The notes under the pieces: generated by a model
What the model saw: only the letters and a program-made list of their open reading frames with translations
Databases searched by the model: none
Told to the model about the DNA's origin: nothing
From: Natronococcus sp. A-GB1
GTDB taxonomy: Archaea; Halobacteriota; Halobacteria; Halobacteriales; Natrialbaceae
DNA: 64,000 nt
Reading direction: 5' to 3'
Assembly: GCF_029688845.1 (NCBI RefSeq)
Contig: NZ_JARUKW010000002.1
Location: forward strand, 62,001 to 126,000
Made by a program: the position numbers and the translations under genes
Part shown: positions 14,657-56,496 of the stretch, one piece after another
Position numbering within the stretch: position 1 is the first letter of the stretch
Layout: each line of letters begins with the position of its first letter

Positions 14657-16318
14657 TCAACTGAACTTCTGTACAGTCACGTTGAGCGTATCGAGATCGA
14701 CGATCGGCGCGAACCCGGCGTCGGGCTGGATGTTGACGCTCTTCTGGAAGTCCGTCTGGGACTGCCAGCAGCCGGAGTTGATCGCGAGCACGTTGTGGTA
14801 CTTGCCAAAGCCCAGCTTGTGGACGTGGCCCGTATGGAAGATGTCGGGGACTTCCTCCATGATCAGGTAGTCCTTCTCTTCGGGTGCAAGTCGAGTGTGA
14901 CCCCCGAACTGCGGCGCGACGTGGCGTTTCTTCAGGAGCTGATACATGGCCCGGTGAGGTTCGTCGTAGCTGGCCTTCTCTTCGGGGAGTTCGGCGATCA
15001 CCTCGTCGAGACTGACCCCGTGGTACATCAGCACCGAGACGCCCTCGAGGGTCACCGTCGAGGGGTTGCTGACGATCCGAGCGTCGTGGGCCGACATGAT
15101 CTCCCGGAGCTCCTCGTCGAAGCCGGGCTGGGGTTCCGCGAGCCGCACCGCGTCGTGGTTGCCCGGGATCATGACGATCTCGATGTCGCCGGGAACCTGT
15201 TTTAGCCGCTCGTTGAACGCCTCGTACTGCTCGTAGATGTCGACGACGTCGAGTTCCTCGTCCTGGTTCGGGTAGACGCCGACGCCCTCGACCATATCAC
15301 CTGCGATGAGCACGTATTCGACGTGCTGGGCCTCGGGCGTGTGGAGCCAATCGGCGAATCGGTTCCAGGCCTCGCTCATGAACTCCTGGCTGCCGACGTG
15401 GACGTCGCTGATCAGCGCCGCCTGGACGTGGCGATCCGCCGTGGAGGGCTCGTGTGTGCGCGGAACGTCCGGGAAGTACATCGAGTCGACGAACGCGATT
15501 CCCGAGTCGTCGGCGAGGGTGCCCTCCATCGCCAGCACCTCGTCGTACAGTAGTTCGTTCACCAGATCGGCGTACTCGCGGTCTTTCATCACGAGCCACG
15601 GGAACGTTCCGGTGGCGTCCTCGAGTTCGATCAGCCAGTGGCCGCTCGCGGTGGAGCGCACGTCGTTGACCAGGCCGACCATTCCGGCCTCGCTGCCGCC
15701 CGGCATCGACTGGATCGCCGTCGCCGGTCGGTGGTTGACCCGCCCGCGGAGCTTCGATCCCAGCCGCTCGAGACGATCCCGGAACACCGAGACGAAGTCC
15801 CCGTACTCGCCGGTTCCCGTGCTCTCGCCGGTCATATCTCCGGCGATTTCGAGCGAACGCTCGAGCGGATCGGCCGACCGACCGCTGCCCTCGAGATCCC
15901 CCTTCGTTTCGACTGGACCTCCGGTAGCCGTCCGTCGAGAAGTGGGTTGTTCGTCTCCAGTTGAAGCGGAGGTGTTGCGGATCGACGGCTCGCCCGAATC
16001 GGGGCCGTCACCGGCCGATGATTCGCTCGAGCCGGAGCCATCGTCGGTCGGTGACTTCCGCGAGTCGGAGCCGTTATCGATCGAGGAACCGATCGGATCG
16101 GTGGTTCGAGCGCCGTCGGAAACGGGCGCTCGCTCAAGGAGCGAGTCGACGTGTTCCGATCGGACGACCAGCGCGTCGTCGGGAAGGTCCTCGAGGACCG
16201 CCTCGAGGGTCGTCGCCGGGTTCTCGGTCGCGGCGATCCGCGTCACCGCCTCGCGCTCGGCGTTGTAGCCGCGACTCGTGAGTTCGCTGACGATCCGAGC
16301 GGGTCCCTCGAGTGGCAC
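14657..16318 (-). CDS. polD1: DNA polymerase D small subunit (DP1, exonuclease subunit)
   Basis: A 553-aa DP1 with a C-terminal calcineurin-like phosphoesterase. Visible metal motifs: ISDVHVGSQ, IAGDMVEG, IPGNHDAVR, MYHGVSL, GGHTRLAPEEKD and HTGHVHKLG, all intact, consistent with 3'-5' proofreading exonuclease. The N-terminal third is a Ser/Asp/Gly-rich linker after a short helical domain. GTG 16318 is chosen because upstream residues are Arg-rich shadow sequence and because a TATA-like element (GTTTTTGATT, about 16342-16351) lies 24-33 bp before it. It lies next to orc1, as in other haloarchaea. The linker's coding DNA contains an ORB-like motif. Confidence 0.93.
   Translation of the reverse strand: MPLEGPARIVSELTSRGYNAEREAVTRIAATENPATTLEAVLEDLPDDALVVRSEHVDSLLERAPVSDGARTTDPIGSSIDNGSDSRKSPTDDGSGSSESSAGDGPDSGEPSIRNTSASTGDEQPTSRRTATGGPVETKGDLEGSGRSADPLERSLEIAGDMTGESTGTGEYGDFVSVFRDRLERLGSKLRGRVNHRPATAIQSMPGGSEAGMVGLVNDVRSTASGHWLIELEDATGTFPWLVMKDREYADLVNELLYDEVLAMEGTLADDSGIAFVDSMYFPDVPRTHEPSTADRHVQAALISDVHVGSQEFMSEAWNRFADWLHTPEAQHVEYVLIAGDMVEGVGVYPNQDEELDVVDIYEQYEAFNERLKQVPGDIEIVMIPGNHDAVRLAEPQPGFDEELREIMSAHDARIVSNPSTVTLEGVSVLMYHGVSLDEVIAELPEEKASYDEPHRAMYQLLKKRHVAPQFGGHTRLAPEEKDYLIMEEVPDIFHTGHVHKLGFGKYHNVLAINSGCWQSQTDFQKSVNIQPDAGFAPIVDLDTLNVTVQKFS
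15898..15917 (-). other. ORB-like motif inside polD1
   Basis: Read on the minus strand this matches the origin-recognition-box core of this window (CAGTCGAAACGAAGGGGG). It encodes Pro-Val-Glu-Thr-Lys-Gly in the disordered linker of DP1. The sequence match is direct; protein binding is an inference. Confidence 0.5.
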
Positions 16319-17481: not shown

Positions 17482-17502
17482 CTCGAGTCGAAACGGAGGG
17501 GT
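17482..17502 (+). other. ORB-like motif between signal peptidase and orc1 genes
   Basis: Thirteen bases after the signal peptidase stop, CTCGAGTCGAAACGGAGGGG matches the ORB core with the G-rich end to the right. It directly abuts the 23-bp tandem repeats. Confidence 0.55.
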
Positions 17503-17506
17503 TAGC

Positions 17507-17656: not shown

Positions 17657-19315
17657 TCAGTTTTCGAACCGGGCCTGGACGAACGGCTGGATGTCGTCGA
17701 TGTTGCTCAGTCGGGAGTCCGAGAGCAGGACGGCCTCGGTCTCGTCGATCGGGACCGAGAGGCTGATCTCCTTGGTCCGACCGTAGCGCCCCTTCGAGAC
17801 GACGACGGCGTTGACGATGCCGAGCATGTCGAGTTCGCTGATGAGGTCGGTCACTCGGCGCTGGGTGAGGACGTCGGCGTCGATCTCCTCGCAGAGGCGC
17901 TTGTAGATGTTGAACACCTCGCCGGTGTTGATGCTGTGGACGCCGTTTTTTTCGAGCAGGATCGTCGAGAAGAGGACGAGCTTGCTCTGCGTGGGAAGGG
18001 TGCGGACGACCTCAACGACTCGGTCGAGTTCGATCTTGTCCTGGGCCTGTCGGACGTGTTTCTCGACGATCGTCTCGGCCTGGGAGCGCTCGGCGAGCTC
18101 GCCCGCCGTTCGGAGCAGATCCAGCGCGCGACGCGCGTCTCCGTGTTCTTGGGCCGCGAAGGCTGCACACAGCGGGATCACGTCGTCCGACAGTGCATCG
18201 CCCTTGAAGGCGACGTTGGCTCGGTGCTGGAGGATATCCCGGAGCTGATTCGCGTCGTACGGTGGAAAGACGATCTCCTCCTCGCCGAGACTTGACTTGA
18301 CTCGGGGGTCCAGAAAGTCGGTGAACTTCAGATCGTTCGAGATTCCGATGATCGACACGCGAGAGTTCTCGAGTTCGGAGTTCATCCGCGAGAGGTTGTA
18401 CAGCGTGTCGTCCCCACTCTTCTCGACGAGCTTGTCGATCTCGTCGAGCATGATGACGACGACCCGCTCGTCGTAGTCGACGGCGTCGAAGAAGACGCTG
18501 TACACCCGATCGGTCGGCCAACCGGTCATCGGCACCTCCTGGAACGACTCCTTGTCTTCCTCGAGGGAGTCGATCCGGTCCTCGACCTCCTCGCGATCGG
18601 AGAACGGCGTGGACGCGAGCGGGTGTTCCCCGTCGGCTACGCCGGCCTCCGTTGGATCTGCCGACCCCTCCGTTTCGACTGGAGAACCGGACGACGGCGA
18701 CTCGGTTTCGGTTGCAAACGAAACGTGGTCGTTCGGATCGGAGCCCGCTGCGTCCTCGACGGATCCGACGGCGGAATCGTCGCGACCGTCGTTCGCTTCG
18801 TACTCCTCGAGTGCCTCGAGGCGCGCTTCGAGCGACTCGATCTTTCGGTCGATCCGTGCCTCGTTCTTCTCGATGAACTTGTTCGCGAGCTGTGCGAGTA
18901 CCCGGTACTGGGTGTCGGTCACCTCGCAGTTGATGTACTCGACGTCACAGGGGACGCTGTACTTCTGGGAGGTACTCTCGAGTTCCTTGCTGACGAACTT
19001 CGCACTCGCGGTCTTTCCAGTTCCCGTCTTTCCGTAGATCAGGATGTTCGAAGGCGTCTCGCCCCGGAGTGCGGCGACCAGAATCGTCGCCATCTTGTTG
19101 ATCTGGTCGGTTCGGTGGGGGAGTTCGTGGGGCGTGTAGGACGGACGCAGCACCTCCTTGTTCTCGAAGATCGGCTCGCCGCTGAGCAGGTCGTCGAACA
19201 GTCCCTGGCTCGGTTCCTCGTCGCCGATCGCCGTCTCCTCGAGCGACGTCGAGAACCCGTCGGTCTCGCCCTCGACGTCGTCGGTTCGTGGCGGCTCTGA
19301 GTTGTCGTCTGACAT
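17657..19315 (-). CDS. orc1: Orc1/Cdc6 replication initiator
   Basis: A 552-aa initiator ATPase that binds ORB elements and recruits the MCM helicase. Walker A is GKTGTGKT (95-102), Walker B VVVIMLDEID (285-294), sensor 1 GISNDL, sensor 2 GDARRALDLL, and the C-terminus is a winged helix (about 450-540). Family members are usually near 400 aa. Here about 100 residues (roughly 152-255) of acidic, Ser-rich coiled-coil-like sequence are inserted between Walker A and B. It faces away from oriC1 and an ORB-like motif lies just upstream of its start, suggesting autoregulation (inference). A TATA-like TTTAATAT lies about 150 bp upstream, implying a leader. Confidence 0.95.
   Translation of the reverse strand: MSDDNSEPPRTDDVEGETDGFSTSLEETAIGDEEPSQGLFDDLLSGEPIFENKEVLRPSYTPHELPHRTDQINKMATILVAALRGETPSNILIYGKTGTGKTASAKFVSKELESTSQKYSVPCDVEYINCEVTDTQYRVLAQLANKFIEKNEARIDRKIESLEARLEALEEYEANDGRDDSAVGSVEDAAGSDPNDHVSFATETESPSSGSPVETEGSADPTEAGVADGEHPLASTPFSDREEVEDRIDSLEEDKESFQEVPMTGWPTDRVYSVFFDAVDYDERVVVIMLDEIDKLVEKSGDDTLYNLSRMNSELENSRVSIIGISNDLKFTDFLDPRVKSSLGEEEIVFPPYDANQLRDILQHRANVAFKGDALSDDVIPLCAAFAAQEHGDARRALDLLRTAGELAERSQAETIVEKHVRQAQDKIELDRVVEVVRTLPTQSKLVLFSTILLEKNGVHSINTGEVFNIYKRLCEEIDADVLTQRRVTDLISELDMLGIVNAVVVSKGRYGRTKEISLSVPIDETEAVLLSDSRLSNIDDIQPFVQARFEN
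18664..18684 (-). other. ORB-like motif inside orc1
   Basis: On the minus strand the core reads CTCCAGTCGAAACGGAGGGG, encoding Pro-Val-Glu-Thr-Glu-Gly at residues 212-217 in the acidic insertion of Orc1. The motif match is direct; function is an inference. Confidence 0.5.
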
Positions 19316-19328
19316 CCGTCGTTGGGAT

Positions 19329-19349
19329 ACCCCCTCGTTTCGTGTGGAG
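19329..19349 (-). other. ORB-like motif just upstream of orc1
   Basis: The minus strand reads CTCCACACGAAACGAGGGGG, ending 14 bp from the orc1 start codon. Its position inside the transcribed leader or promoter would allow Orc1 to act on its own gene (inference). Confidence 0.55.
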
Positions 19350-19841
19350 AGACGGACCCGAAAGCAGTGATGCAGCGTTTGAACGGCCAGTGCGGCCGAT
19401 CAAGCGGAATAGCGATCGGTTTCGGATCCAGTTGATGCAAACGAAACAGAGGAACACCGCGATATTAAATTCTTCCCTTTCACTCACGTAGGATATGATT
19501 CTTTTTGGACGGATCCGGCTGCGAATCGAGTTGGTACCAGCTGCCGACTCCGGCGGTGTTTCGGATCGATTCCGGTTCCAGCGGTGAACGGAACCGTACC
19601 GGTATCAGTTCGATCCTCCGTTCGATAGAATGATACCGATACTCATGGGACTCTTCGGATGGTGACGATACTCGTGATCGGCAGCTCTCACCCGGTCAGT
19701 CGGCTGAGCGATCGGCGATTCCTGTCAGCTTCGCGATTACTCGCCGCTGGGTCGGTTCGTTCGGAGTGTTCGATTCGAAGCCAGGGTGGTGGGAATCCGG
19801 TGAGGAGAGATCGGCTCCGACGTCGAAGGAAGCCGGTCGCT

Positions 19842-19862
19842 CTCGAGTCGAAGAGAGGGGGG
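19842..19862 (+). other. ORB-like motif, left part of oriC1
   Basis: CTCGAGTCGAAGAGAGGGGG core on the plus strand. Its G-rich end faces the C-rich end of the next ORB (19885), so the two form an imperfect hairpin. Confidence 0.6.
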
Positions 19863-19884
19863 TTGGTTGCGGCGTCCCCCTCCC

Positions 19885-19906
19885 CACCCCTTCGTTTCAA
19901 CTGGAG
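19885..19906 (-). other. ORB, left of the unwinding region
   Basis: The minus strand reads CTCCAGTTGAAACGAAGGGG plus TG and continues into a second G-run. It is a perfect inverted copy of the ORB at 20190-20211. Confidence 0.85.
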
Positions 19907-20019
19907 ACCGACGAGGGAGTGGGGTGGGAGAAACGGAAAGACGGCTACAGGGGACAGAGCTCGAGGGAGTAATCCGGTGATTTCAGGAGAGGTCAAGCGA
20001 TATACGGGAGGTCTGTAAC

Positions 20020-20160
20020 GAGAGTTATGATCTTGTTGCTCAGATGGAGAGTTCAGAATTGAGCTAGTAACTAGATTGGTAGTCCTAGTAAATAGCTTCT
20101 TTTGTACCTAATACGGGTGCTGTTTCTTTTGTATGTATATAAAACCTTCCTTATCTAGAA
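20020..20160. other. AT-rich duplex-unwinding element of oriC1
   Basis: An AT-rich block (for example TAGTAACTAGATTGG, TAGTAAATAGCTTCTTTTG, GTATGTATATAAAACC) in an otherwise GC-rich chromosome, bounded by two inverted ORBs. Strand opening here is inferred from the layout. Confidence 0.7.
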
Positions 20161-20189
20161 CACCCTCCCCCACCCCTCCCTTCGGAGCG

Positions 20190-20211
20190 CTCCAGTTGAA
20201 ACGAAGGGGTG
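20190..20211 (+). other. ORB with extended G-string, right of the unwinding region
   Basis: CTCCAGTTGAAACGAAGGGG plus TG, followed by GGGGG. Such G-string extensions are known from haloarchaeal oriC1 ORBs. A degenerate inverted partner (CCACCCCTCCCTTCGG) abuts it on the left. Confidence 0.85.
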
Positions 20212-20458
20212 GGGGGTTCCCGACATCTCGTCCGGTTGTGTTACGCTCCCCGATGAAACGATCTGCTCTCATGACATTCTTCTCTGGGGACTACTGTTCG
20301 TCCGTTCCTCCTGTATTCCGGCGCTTTGGATGGTGTGTGTTACCTTCCTCCATACCGTTCTTTCACAATAGTCGTATTATCTACACGTCTGACGTAGGCT
20401 TAAGTGAATCCAGTTTGTAGTACGCGCAGACGCACTTCGCGGTGCCGGAGGGCCAAGG

Positions 20459-21097
20459 ATGGGACTGTTAACAGGACTCAAAGATAGTATCTCCCGGGTT
20501 ACGGATCGGTTGTTTACCGACGAGCAACCCAAACGAATCGGAATCTATGGACCGCCCAACGCTGGAAAGACGACGCTTGCGAATCGCATCGCACGGGACT
20601 GGACCGGCGATGCGGTCGGAACCGAAAGTCACGTTCCACACGAAACACGCCGCGCACGTCGAAAGGAAGACGTCGAGATCGAACGCGACGGACGGTCGGT
20701 CTCGATCGACATCGTCGACACGCCCGGCGTAACCACCAAGGTGGACTACGAGGAGTTCACCGACGAGATGGAAGAAGACGACGCGATCCGTCGGTCCCGC
20801 GAGGCCACGGAGGGCGTCGCCGAGGCGATGCACTGGCTTCGGGAGGATGTCGACGGCGTCATTTACGTTCTCGACAGCGCGGAGGATCCGATCACGCAGG
20901 TCAATACGATGCTGATCGGCATCATCGAATCCCGCGATCTGCCGGTTCTCATCTTCGCGAACAAGATCGACCTCGACGAGGCGAGCGTCAAACGGATCGA
21001 GGACGCGTTCCCCCAGCACAAGACGGTCCCGCTCTCCGCGAAGGAGGGCCAGAACATGGACGAGGTCTACGACAATATCGCGGAGTACTTCGGGTGA
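20459..21097 (+). CDS. oapA: Era-like GTP-binding protein, origin-associated OapA
   Basis: A 212-aa small GTPase. The P-loop is GPPNAGKTT (31-39), G3 is DTPGV (about 84), G4 is NKID, and a G5-like SAK follows (PLSAKEGQN). It is the first of three genes that always sit beside oriC1 in haloarchaea (oapA-oapB-oapC). Their role near the origin is not understood. CTTAAG at about 20399 is a plausible TATA box and GGAGGG lies 8-13 bp before the ATG. Start ATG 20459 fits both. Confidence 0.88.
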   Translation: MGLLTGLKDSISRVTDRLFTDEQPKRIGIYGPPNAGKTTLANRIARDWTGDAVGTESHVPHETRRARRKEDVEIERDGRSVSIDIVDTPGVTTKVDYEEFTDEMEEDDAIRRSREATEGVAEAMHWLREDVDGVIYVLDSAEDPITQVNTMLIGIIESRDLPVLIFANKIDLDEASVKRIEDAFPQHKTVPLSAKEGQNMDEVYDNIAEYFG

Positions 21098-21103
21098 TCA
21101 GTC

Positions 21104-21508
21104 GTGCCCAAGGCAACTAACCCGGACGATCCCAACGGTAATGACGGCGTACAGATCGATCTCATCAGCGGCGAGCGGATGGACACACTCGCCTCCACGG
21201 AGAAGATCCGGATGATCCTCGACGGCGTTCACGACGGTAACATCGTTATCCTCGAGGAGGGGCTCACCCCCGACGAGGAGAGCAAGCTCATCGAGATGAC
21301 GATGGCCGAGATCAGCCCCGACGCCGGATTCAACGGTATCGAAATCGAGACCTACCCCAAATCGGAGACGAAGGACTCGTCGCTGCTGGGCCGGCTCATG
21401 GGGTCGAACGAGTCGGCGGCGAAGCTGACGGTGATCGGGCCCGCCAACCAGATCGAAACCCTTCACAAGGACGAAACGCTGATCAGCGCGCTCGTATCCC
21501 GTAACTAA
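21104..21508 (+). CDS. oapB: DUF2073 protein, origin-associated OapB
   Basis: A 134-aa cytoplasmic protein matching the DUF2073 pattern (VQIDLISGERMDTL, EKIRMILDGVHDGNIVILEEGLTPDEE). It starts with GTG 6 bp after oapA, and its TAA stop shares one base with the oapC start (TAATG). Biochemical role is unknown; its conserved link to the origin suggests cooperation with OapA and OapC. Confidence 0.85.
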   Translation: MPKATNPDDPNGNDGVQIDLISGERMDTLASTEKIRMILDGVHDGNIVILEEGLTPDEESKLIEMTMAEISPDAGFNGIEIETYPKSETKDSSLLGRLMGSNESAAKLTVIGPANQIETLHKDETLISALVSRN

Positions 21509-22491
21509 TGCCACACCAGTGTACGAACTGTGGCCACACGTTTCCGGACGGCTCGAAGGAGATGCTCTCGGGCTGTCCCGACTGTGGCGGGAACAAGTTC
21601 CAGTTCACGCCGAACTCGGACCGGAGCGCCGAGGACGGCGCCGACGGAGATGCCGACCCTGAAACGCCGGCGGCCGATTCCACCGAAGCGGAAGCCGACG
21701 GCGTCGCCTCTCGAGCGGCCGAAACCGTCCGCGGGTGGGTTTCTTCGGAGCCGACCGACGAGTCGGCTCCCGACGCCCCGGAGCCACCGGCAGCCGACCG
21801 ATCGACGGCGAGCGCCGGCACGGCCGATCCCCAGTCGACCGGTGACTCTCGAGGGTCGGACCCGACTCGCAACGAGCGGTCGACGTCCCCCGGAGACCGG
21901 GACCGAGCGAGCGACGACGAGGACGACTCGTTTACCGAGTGGCCCGACTCGGCTCGTCGCCCCGAGGACCGCTCGTCGCCGTCTGCGGAGTCCACGGCCG
22001 GCAACGTCACTGACGACCGCACCGGCTCCGAACTGAACTCGAGTGACCACCGGACCGATCCGATCGCGGACGCCTCGAGCGAGCGCTCCGAGCCCGACCA
22101 CGAGACGGCGGCGGTGGCGGACTCGGAGGACTCCGCGCAGGCGAGCGCCCGCAGCGAGGTCGTCCCGGCCGACGATCTCCCGACCGGTTCGGACGCAGCT
22201 GGCGAAGGTGATCCGATCACCGAGGTCGATCCCATTGACGACGGCGGGAGCGAGGAAACGCCCGATCACGGGCGGGTCGTCAGCGAGCCATCGGGTGAGC
22301 AGCCGTCGATCGAGGAACTTCGCGCGGAACTCAACGAGCAGTTCGAGAGCATCAAGATCCTCCGACCGGGCCAGTACGAACTCAACCTCATGGAGCTGTA
22401 CAACCGCGACGAGTACATCATCTCGCTCCAGGAGGACGGCCGGTACGTCATCGACGTTCCGGAGTCCTGGCACGACGACGCCGACGAGTAA
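21508..22491 (+). CDS. oapC: zinc-ribbon protein, origin-associated OapC
   Basis: A 327-aa three-part protein. Residues 3-30 form a zinc ribbon (CTNCGHTF and CPDCGGNKF). Residues of about 40-265 are acidic, Ser/Asp/Pro-rich and probably disordered. The C-terminal about 60 residues (SIEELRAELNEQFESIKILRPGQYELNL) form a compact, conserved-looking domain. The two ends match the OapC family; the linker is typical of haloarchaeal versions. It is translationally coupled to oapB. ORB-like motifs follow directly after its stop. Confidence 0.87.
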   Translation: MPHQCTNCGHTFPDGSKEMLSGCPDCGGNKFQFTPNSDRSAEDGADGDADPETPAADSTEAEADGVASRAAETVRGWVSSEPTDESAPDAPEPPAADRSTASAGTADPQSTGDSRGSDPTRNERSTSPGDRDRASDDEDDSFTEWPDSARRPEDRSSPSAESTAGNVTDDRTGSELNSSDHRTDPIADASSERSEPDHETAAVADSEDSAQASARSEVVPADDLPTGSDAAGEGDPITEVDPIDDGGSEETPDHGRVVSEPSGEQPSIEELRAELNEQFESIKILRPGQYELNLMELYNRDEYIISLQEDGRYVIDVPESWHDDADE

Positions 22492-22496
22492 CGCCG

Positions 22497-22580
22497 ACCC
22501 CTTCGGTTCGACTGTAGACGGCCACCACCAGCCCTCGGGTCGCCCCTTCTTCGAGTCGAGTTGCAGTCGAACTCGGGGTG
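22497..22580. other. cluster of three ORB-like motifs after oapC
   Basis: ACCCCTTCGGTTCGACTGTAG at 22497 (minus orientation), GCCCCTTCTTCGAGTCGAG at 22542 (minus) and TGCAGTCGAACTCGGGGTG at 22562 (plus). The last two form an imperfect palindrome. They are weaker than the oriC1 copies. Confidence 0.45.
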
Positions 22581-24228: not shown

Positions 24229-24250
24229 CTTCGAGTCGAAACGAGGGGGA
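24229..24250 (+). other. ORB-like motif in intergenic region
   Basis: CTTCGAGTCGAAACGAGGGG on the plus strand, with an opposed CCCCTCTTCGAG half on its left. It lies between a divergent gene start (24134) and the iron permease stop (24295). Confidence 0.5.
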
Positions 24251-24294
24251 GACCGGGATCGCCGTGCTGACGGTCGGGAGCGTTCGGCCGTCGA

Positions 24295-28129: not shown

Positions 28130-28409
28130 TTTCGGGTCGACGCTCCGGCCGAACCCCTTGATTTCCACTCGAGCGTTCGGGCGCTCCCTCGGTTGTCTAC
28201 CCGGGGCGATAGATTCCTTTCCGGGACGGCGGCCAACGACGACGAGACGACCGCCGAAGCGCCGATCGATCGTGACGGTACGGACGAGAACGACACCGAC
28301 CGATCCGCAGCAAAACGCGACGAGAGCCACGGCCCCCTGCCCGAACAACGCGAACGTCGCTGTCGGCGTCCGTGCTGTACGGCGGTCTCACCGCCCCCAG
28401 TGAGTAGCG
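28130..28409. other. 280-bp intergenic region between convergent genes
   Basis: It contains an ORB-like motif at 28152-28173 (minus orientation, core CTCGAGTGGAAATCAAGGGG). Otherwise it is GC-rich, with only short overlapping frames that lack codon character. No terminator with a clear T-run is seen. Confidence 0.45.
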
Positions 28410-56417: not shown

Positions 56418-56439
56418 CTCCAGTTGAAACGAAGGGGTT
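56418..56439 (+). other. isolated perfect ORB-like motif beside tRNA-Gln
   Basis: The first 21 bases (CTCCAGTTGAAACGAAGGGG plus T) are identical to the oriC1 ORB at 20190. It lies 48 bp after the tRNA, with no second copy or AT-rich region nearby. Confidence 0.7.
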
Positions 56440-56496
56440 CCCAGATCGTCGTCCCGACCAGAACCCATATTCGGTCAGCCTCCCTAGAAGTCGTCG

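Follow-up and report, generated by a model that had tools for sequence, protein, structure and literature searches.

The oriC1 core and its gene neighbourhood

The window, by which we mean the whole 64,000-nucleotide stretch of DNA analysed here, covers positions 62001-126000 of contig C12 in a source genome of 4.5 Mb. The region under study (19316-20458) is the entire gap between the initiator gene orc1/cdc6 (17657-19315, minus strand) and oapA, which starts at 20459 on the plus strand. The initiator protein belongs to the Orc1-1 type; it carries the Pfam domains Cdc6_C and Cdc6_lid, and its best PDB match is S. solfataricus Cdc6-1 (2qby_A, E 3e-106). On the other side lies the cluster encoding the OapA GTPase, OapB and OapC (20459-22491, plus strand; PF09846, PF09845 and MMR_HSR1), in which OapA matches the Natronococcus amylolyticus protein with 100% identity. 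Within the gap we find two ORBs in inverted orientation, at 19882-19906 (minus strand) and 20190-20214 (plus strand), both with G-strings pointing outward. They are separated by 283 bp that enclose an AT-rich core, the presumed duplex unwinding element, whose best 60 bp (approximately 20089-20148) are 70% AT. The first-pass annotation of this DNA, which was made from the letters alone, had recognised an oriC1 with ORBs and G-strings, the outward direction of the G-runs, and the spacing around an AT-rich core, all of which are borne out here. It had also described the ORBs as exact 22-bp inverted copies; the exact inversion stands but the identity is three bases longer, at 25 bp. Across 300 dinucleotide shuffles of the gap, no exact inverted repeat was longer than 18 bp. 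Both ORBs score 44.2 bits against an ORB matrix trained on the origins of relatives, whereas the maxima for shuffled gaps average -21.5 and reach -0.5 at the highest. An inverted ORB pair is present in all 73 of the named relatives in which cdc6 adjoins oapA, and 52 origins of an anonymous genome set (the window counted among them) also have the core pair. The two sets overlap in species, and these and all other counts given here are phylogenetically correlated and do not represent independent events.

The region is a canonical haloarchaeal oriC1. It shares with Haloarcula hispanica oriC1-cdc6A, Halobacterium oriC1-orc7 and Haloferax volcanii oriC1-orc1 an adjacent orc1/cdc6 gene (here of the Orc1-1 type), two inverted ORBs with the extended, outward-facing halophile G-string, an AT-rich core inside the pair, an inner G-rich inverted repeat and a conserved gene neighbourhood, and we see no essential difference between its core and those already known. 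The oap genes are not always neighbours of the origin: in three relatives (G034, G040 and G012), oapA lies between about 10 kb and more than 100 kb from cdc6 and the oriC1 ORBs. GC skew was dropped as a proof of origin function because the signal is too weak, with only a slight change of sign near 80-90 kb of contig C12.

The inner repeat has its left arm at 19915-19928 (plus strand), where it is G-rich in 39 of the 52 origins, and its right arm at 20163-20180 (minus strand, and hence C-rich on the forward strand), which is seen in 21 of the 52. The same G-rich inverted repeat lies directly inside both ORBs of H. hispanica oriC1, where mutation of the ORB G-string abolishes plasmid replication and mutation of the inner repeat reduces it (Wu et al.; PMC3936714). 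It has been reported in most haloarchaea, sometimes as one half only (PMC3936714), and the arms seen here are the known H. hispanica enhancer III/IV. Their identification bears on the remainder of the earlier annotation, which had paired each strong ORB with a weaker opposed ORB (at 19842 and about 20170) in hairpins said to be convergent on the left and divergent on the right, an asymmetry that might impose a polarity on initiation. Position 19842 scores -3.6 bits, in contrast to 44.2 for the true ORBs, and is not recognisable as an ORB, while the best score on the opposing strand between 20155 and 20200 is -18.4. The supposed right partner is in fact the C-rich arm of the inner repeat, whose other arm had been overlooked. 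Since a G-rich element lies directly inside both strong ORBs, the layout is symmetric. Conservation of the partners had been named in advance as a point on which the hairpins would stand or fall. On the left, a degenerate ORB-like sequence occurs in about five genomes of the same genus (one with a core score of 17.7, the rest between -2.7 and 3.2) and a stronger site is found at this position in one unrelated genome; on the right, no relative has an ORB, the best scores lying below -7. In some relatives, moreover, the inner arm is C-rich rather than G-rich (for example on the left in G019 and G049 and on the right in G032), which would abolish any hairpin with the ORB G-string. The degenerate sequence at 19842 and a pair of segments with 88% complementarity (20167-20182 and 20200-20215) can be cited for the hairpin model. 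Given the scores and the conservation we nevertheless reject the two partners as true ORBs, and the idea that hairpins set initiation polarity is left with hardly any credibility.

Satellite ORBs outside the core

The ORB core TCCANNNGAAAYNANGGGGT has just four exact matches in the 4.5-Mb genome, two of which are the core pair and two of which (S3 and S7) lie elsewhere in the window, while the reversed control pattern has none genome-wide. Allowing a single mismatch gives ten matches, eight of them on the contig of the window. We took a census with a 21-bp core matrix at a threshold of 18 bits, comparing the 20 kb around oriC1 in 20 relatives with 20 control segments of 20 kb from the same genomes. 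There are 129 sites around oriC1 (about 40 of which are the core pairs themselves) and one in the matched controls, and most of the non-core sites recur at a few fixed places. Initiator boxes beyond the origin are thus present well above chance, as at titration loci of the oriC2D or datA kind. They do not form a dense cluster in one short non-coding block around oriC1, but are scattered as single sites and one pair, some of them within genes.

S3 (19325-19349, minus strand) is an exact match to the ORB core that ends 9 bp before the ATG of cdc6. It has the general archaeal G-string but not the additional GGGG found at the origin pair. The site recurs in relatives: among 58 upstream regions, 32 have an ORB that ends 8-10 bp ahead of the cdc6 start, and four more can be recognised by eye where the start is mis-set. 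Of the 45 named loci with the site, 38 have it 7-9 bp from the ATG. In one relative (G012), some 1.3 Mb separate cdc6 from the putative oriC1 ORB pair and S3 is still found at 9 bp, which ties the site to the gene and not to the origin. A promoter search found a weak AT-rich element that precedes the ORB core by approximately 25 bp, and no clear TATA box or start site. Many relatives also have a GGCC-N5-GGCC dyad with flanking ATC/GAT (19380-19404 in the window) upstream of S3 and of the cdc6 start; it shows matching changes on both arms in some of them (GAGCC/GGCTC and GGGCC/GGCCC) and is possibly another operator. A conserved RNA hairpin upstream of S3 was considered and rejected, as RNAalifold supported neither folding nor covariation and there was no match in Rfam.

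S7 (56418-56442, plus strand) is an isolated exact core match 47 bp past the 3' end of tRNA-Gln(CTG) and 36 kb from oriC1. Many relatives have an ORB about 45-55 bp after this tRNA gene on the same strand. By a strict pattern the arrangement occurs in 49 of 293 genomes across the order, 37 in the family of the window and 12 in another. Every specified ORB position is identical in 15 aligned loci and the flanks are 43-66% identical; these loci were found by the ORB pattern, so that the contrast with the flanks is the informative part. The site usually lies 15-40 kb from oriC1, on a side that varies, as would be expected from inversions around the origin. The gene downstream was rejected as the target of the site, since this rhodanese gene is missing from several relatives that retain the pairing of tRNA-Gln and ORB. 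At loci from another family (for example L141), the stretch between tRNA-Gln and the ORB contains another ORB-like sequence, inverted and with only a short G-string (TTCCAGTCGAAATGAGGGT), suggesting that S7 may be an inverted pair of which one half has decayed.

Two further satellites lie within genes. S2 (18660-18684, minus strand) falls in the variable linker of the cdc6 coding sequence, where it encodes PVETEGS, and is found in 26 of 73 named loci. An inverted pair, S1, occupies the variable linker of the gene for the small subunit of PolD (DP1), a gene that is also near oriC1 in H. volcanii (PMC7776575). Its left half is at 15894-15918 (minus strand), and its right half (15955-15979, plus strand), 61 bp away start to start, is degenerate in the window genome and strong in relatives. 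The pair, with G-strings outward, is present in 43 of 69 named loci, with the 61-bp spacing in 37, and a strict paired pattern is matched in 69 of the 293 genomes across the order, including several other families. In G012 it is kept in DP1 despite being far from oriC1.

An alternative explanation for the coding sites is that they are short linear motifs (PVETEG and PSVSTG) for protein-protein contact, with an incidental resemblance to ORBs, and the Cdc6 and DP1 copies do share one reading frame for PVETxG. Matches nevertheless vanish when synonymous codons are shuffled: there are 31 ORB matches in DP1 compared with 0.20 expected from shuffles within the gene (maximum 2 in 300), and 16 in Cdc6 compared with 0.12 (maximum 2 in 500; frame trimmed to leave out S3). 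In a set of 20 relatives plus the window that was not chosen by DNA pattern, the codons CCA, GAA, GGG and ACT-GGA are fixed although they are minority codons, and the amino acids vary where the ORB leaves bases free. Furthermore, Cdc6 of G020 retains an ORB-like site without the peptide, and S3 and S7 are non-coding. We reject the protein motif as an explanation on the basis of the synonymous shuffles and consider it very improbable. Because the matches are lost on shuffling, minority codons are fixed and residues change at free ORB positions, the comparison of sequences shows that the coding copies are under selection at the level of DNA and are not kept as protein motifs.

The placement of the satellites also bears on two other possible roles. 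They might be accessory parts of an extended origin, in which bound Orc1 loops or bridges to the core pair and builds the initiation complex or loads extra MCM. Such a role would fit the concentration of sites within a few kb and the layout of S1, an inverted pair that faces outward exactly as at oriC1. Yet a minimal H. hispanica oriC1 with two ORBs only replicates a plasmid (PMC3936714), the 36 kb to S7 are hard to accommodate, and S3 and S1 stay with their genes when these are unlinked from oriC1, so we regard an extended origin as unlikely. Alternatively, the sites might organise or segregate the origin region in the manner of the parS sites clustered around bacterial origins. This would be in keeping with their origin-centred clustering and the conserved distal site, but no partner protein or partition phenotype is known, and in G012 the sites go with genes rather than with the origin; we consider a segregation role to be rather improbable.

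A proposed role in Orc1 autoregulation and titration

Of the roles considered, we think that autoregulation and titration of the initiator is the most likely one for the satellite ORBs, by analogy with dnaA/datA of E. coli and oriC2D of H. hispanica, and we place at roughly one in two the probability of the reading as a whole, namely a canonical oriC1 accompanied by conserved satellite ORBs that bind Orc1 to these ends. In E. coli, as here, initiator boxes occupy a fixed place in the control region of the initiator gene and a further titration locus, a putative one in the window, lies at a distance, although the proteins involved are unrelated to those of the window and the distal site of the window is a single ORB. 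In H. hispanica, a dense cluster of ORBs keeps oriC2 in check, probably via titration of Cdc6E (PMC3936714). There too, extra initiator boxes lie outside the origin and are not expected to have origin activity of their own; oriC2D, however, comprises 11 ORBs in a single 722-bp intergenic block downstream of cdc6E, whereas the satellites of the window would serve oriC1 and are dispersed singles and a pair, partly in genes.

Orc1 is known to bind ORBs as monomers with polarity and to recruit MCM (PMC12141716; PMC7776575). At the core, Orc1 would bind the two outward-facing ORBs and load MCM at the AT-rich core, with assistance from the inner G-rich repeat. The same Orc1 would most likely also occupy the satellites, which would not themselves be origins. 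Lying directly before the orc1/cdc6 start codon, S3 most likely represses the gene when Orc1 is abundant, while the ORBs in cdc6, in DP1 and at tRNA-Gln most likely hold spare Orc1. Origin-adjacent satellites would double once the fork has left, reducing free Orc1 and discouraging re-initiation. A tentative proposal, to which we give somewhat less than even odds, is that haloarchaeal Orc1 is controlled by just such a conserved array. Its operator would lie at the start codon of orc1/cdc6 itself and its decoy ORBs in the coding sequences of cdc6 and of the replicative polymerase subunit DP1 and next to tRNA-Gln, and the whole would act on oriC1 as a circuit of feedback and titration.

Several considerations temper the titration component in particular. 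The extended GGGG, which the satellites do not have, is essential within the ORBs of H. hispanica oriC1 (PMC3936714), so the affinity of the satellites may be lower, which weakens this reading. So does the DP1 pair that is kept far from oriC1 in G012: the sites evidently need not be close to the origin, and the argument from gene dosage loses force. In addition, S1 and S2 are not universal among relatives, and S1 is degenerate in the window genome. Haloarchaea are polyploid and can lose oriC1, and strict once-per-cycle control may thus not apply to them. If the proposal is correct, a few conserved ORBs at predictable places, which can be recoded synonymously, would make Orc1 autoregulation and titration testable in a tractable haloarchaeon, and initiator-binding sites would be maintained within protein-coding DNA across an archaeal order.

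The core origin was already known, and earlier work has remarked on ORBs that lie downstream of other cdc6 genes (PMC3936714). Among the openly licensed papers searched, none reports an ORB within a coding sequence, at the start codon of cdc6 or beside tRNA-Gln. The haloarchaeal surveys among them scanned only the intergenic regions flanking cdc6, which placed S1, S2 and S7 beyond their search; priority for S3, which could appear in their supplementary lists, is particularly uncertain.

Further ORB-like sites

The core-matrix census also picked out two ORB-like sites seen mainly within the genus, namely S6 downstream of cdc6 (17482-17506, plus strand) and S5 just past the OapC stop codon (22493-22517, minus strand). 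Two weaker ones on the oapA side (24230-24254 and 28149-28173) have core scores of 17.7 and 16.8, below the threshold. Pairs of ORB-like sequences in direct orientation, of which the window's genome contains no exact match, occur about 108 or 246-250 bp apart at loci L133, L138, L139 and L140 (near position 1200-1550) and in G012 (C1:1917885 and 1918132), at distances from oriC1 of tens to hundreds of kb. In L133 and L139, these direct pairs are at or near the gap between an NMD3-like gene and one for an HtpX-like protease, as named from reading their translations.
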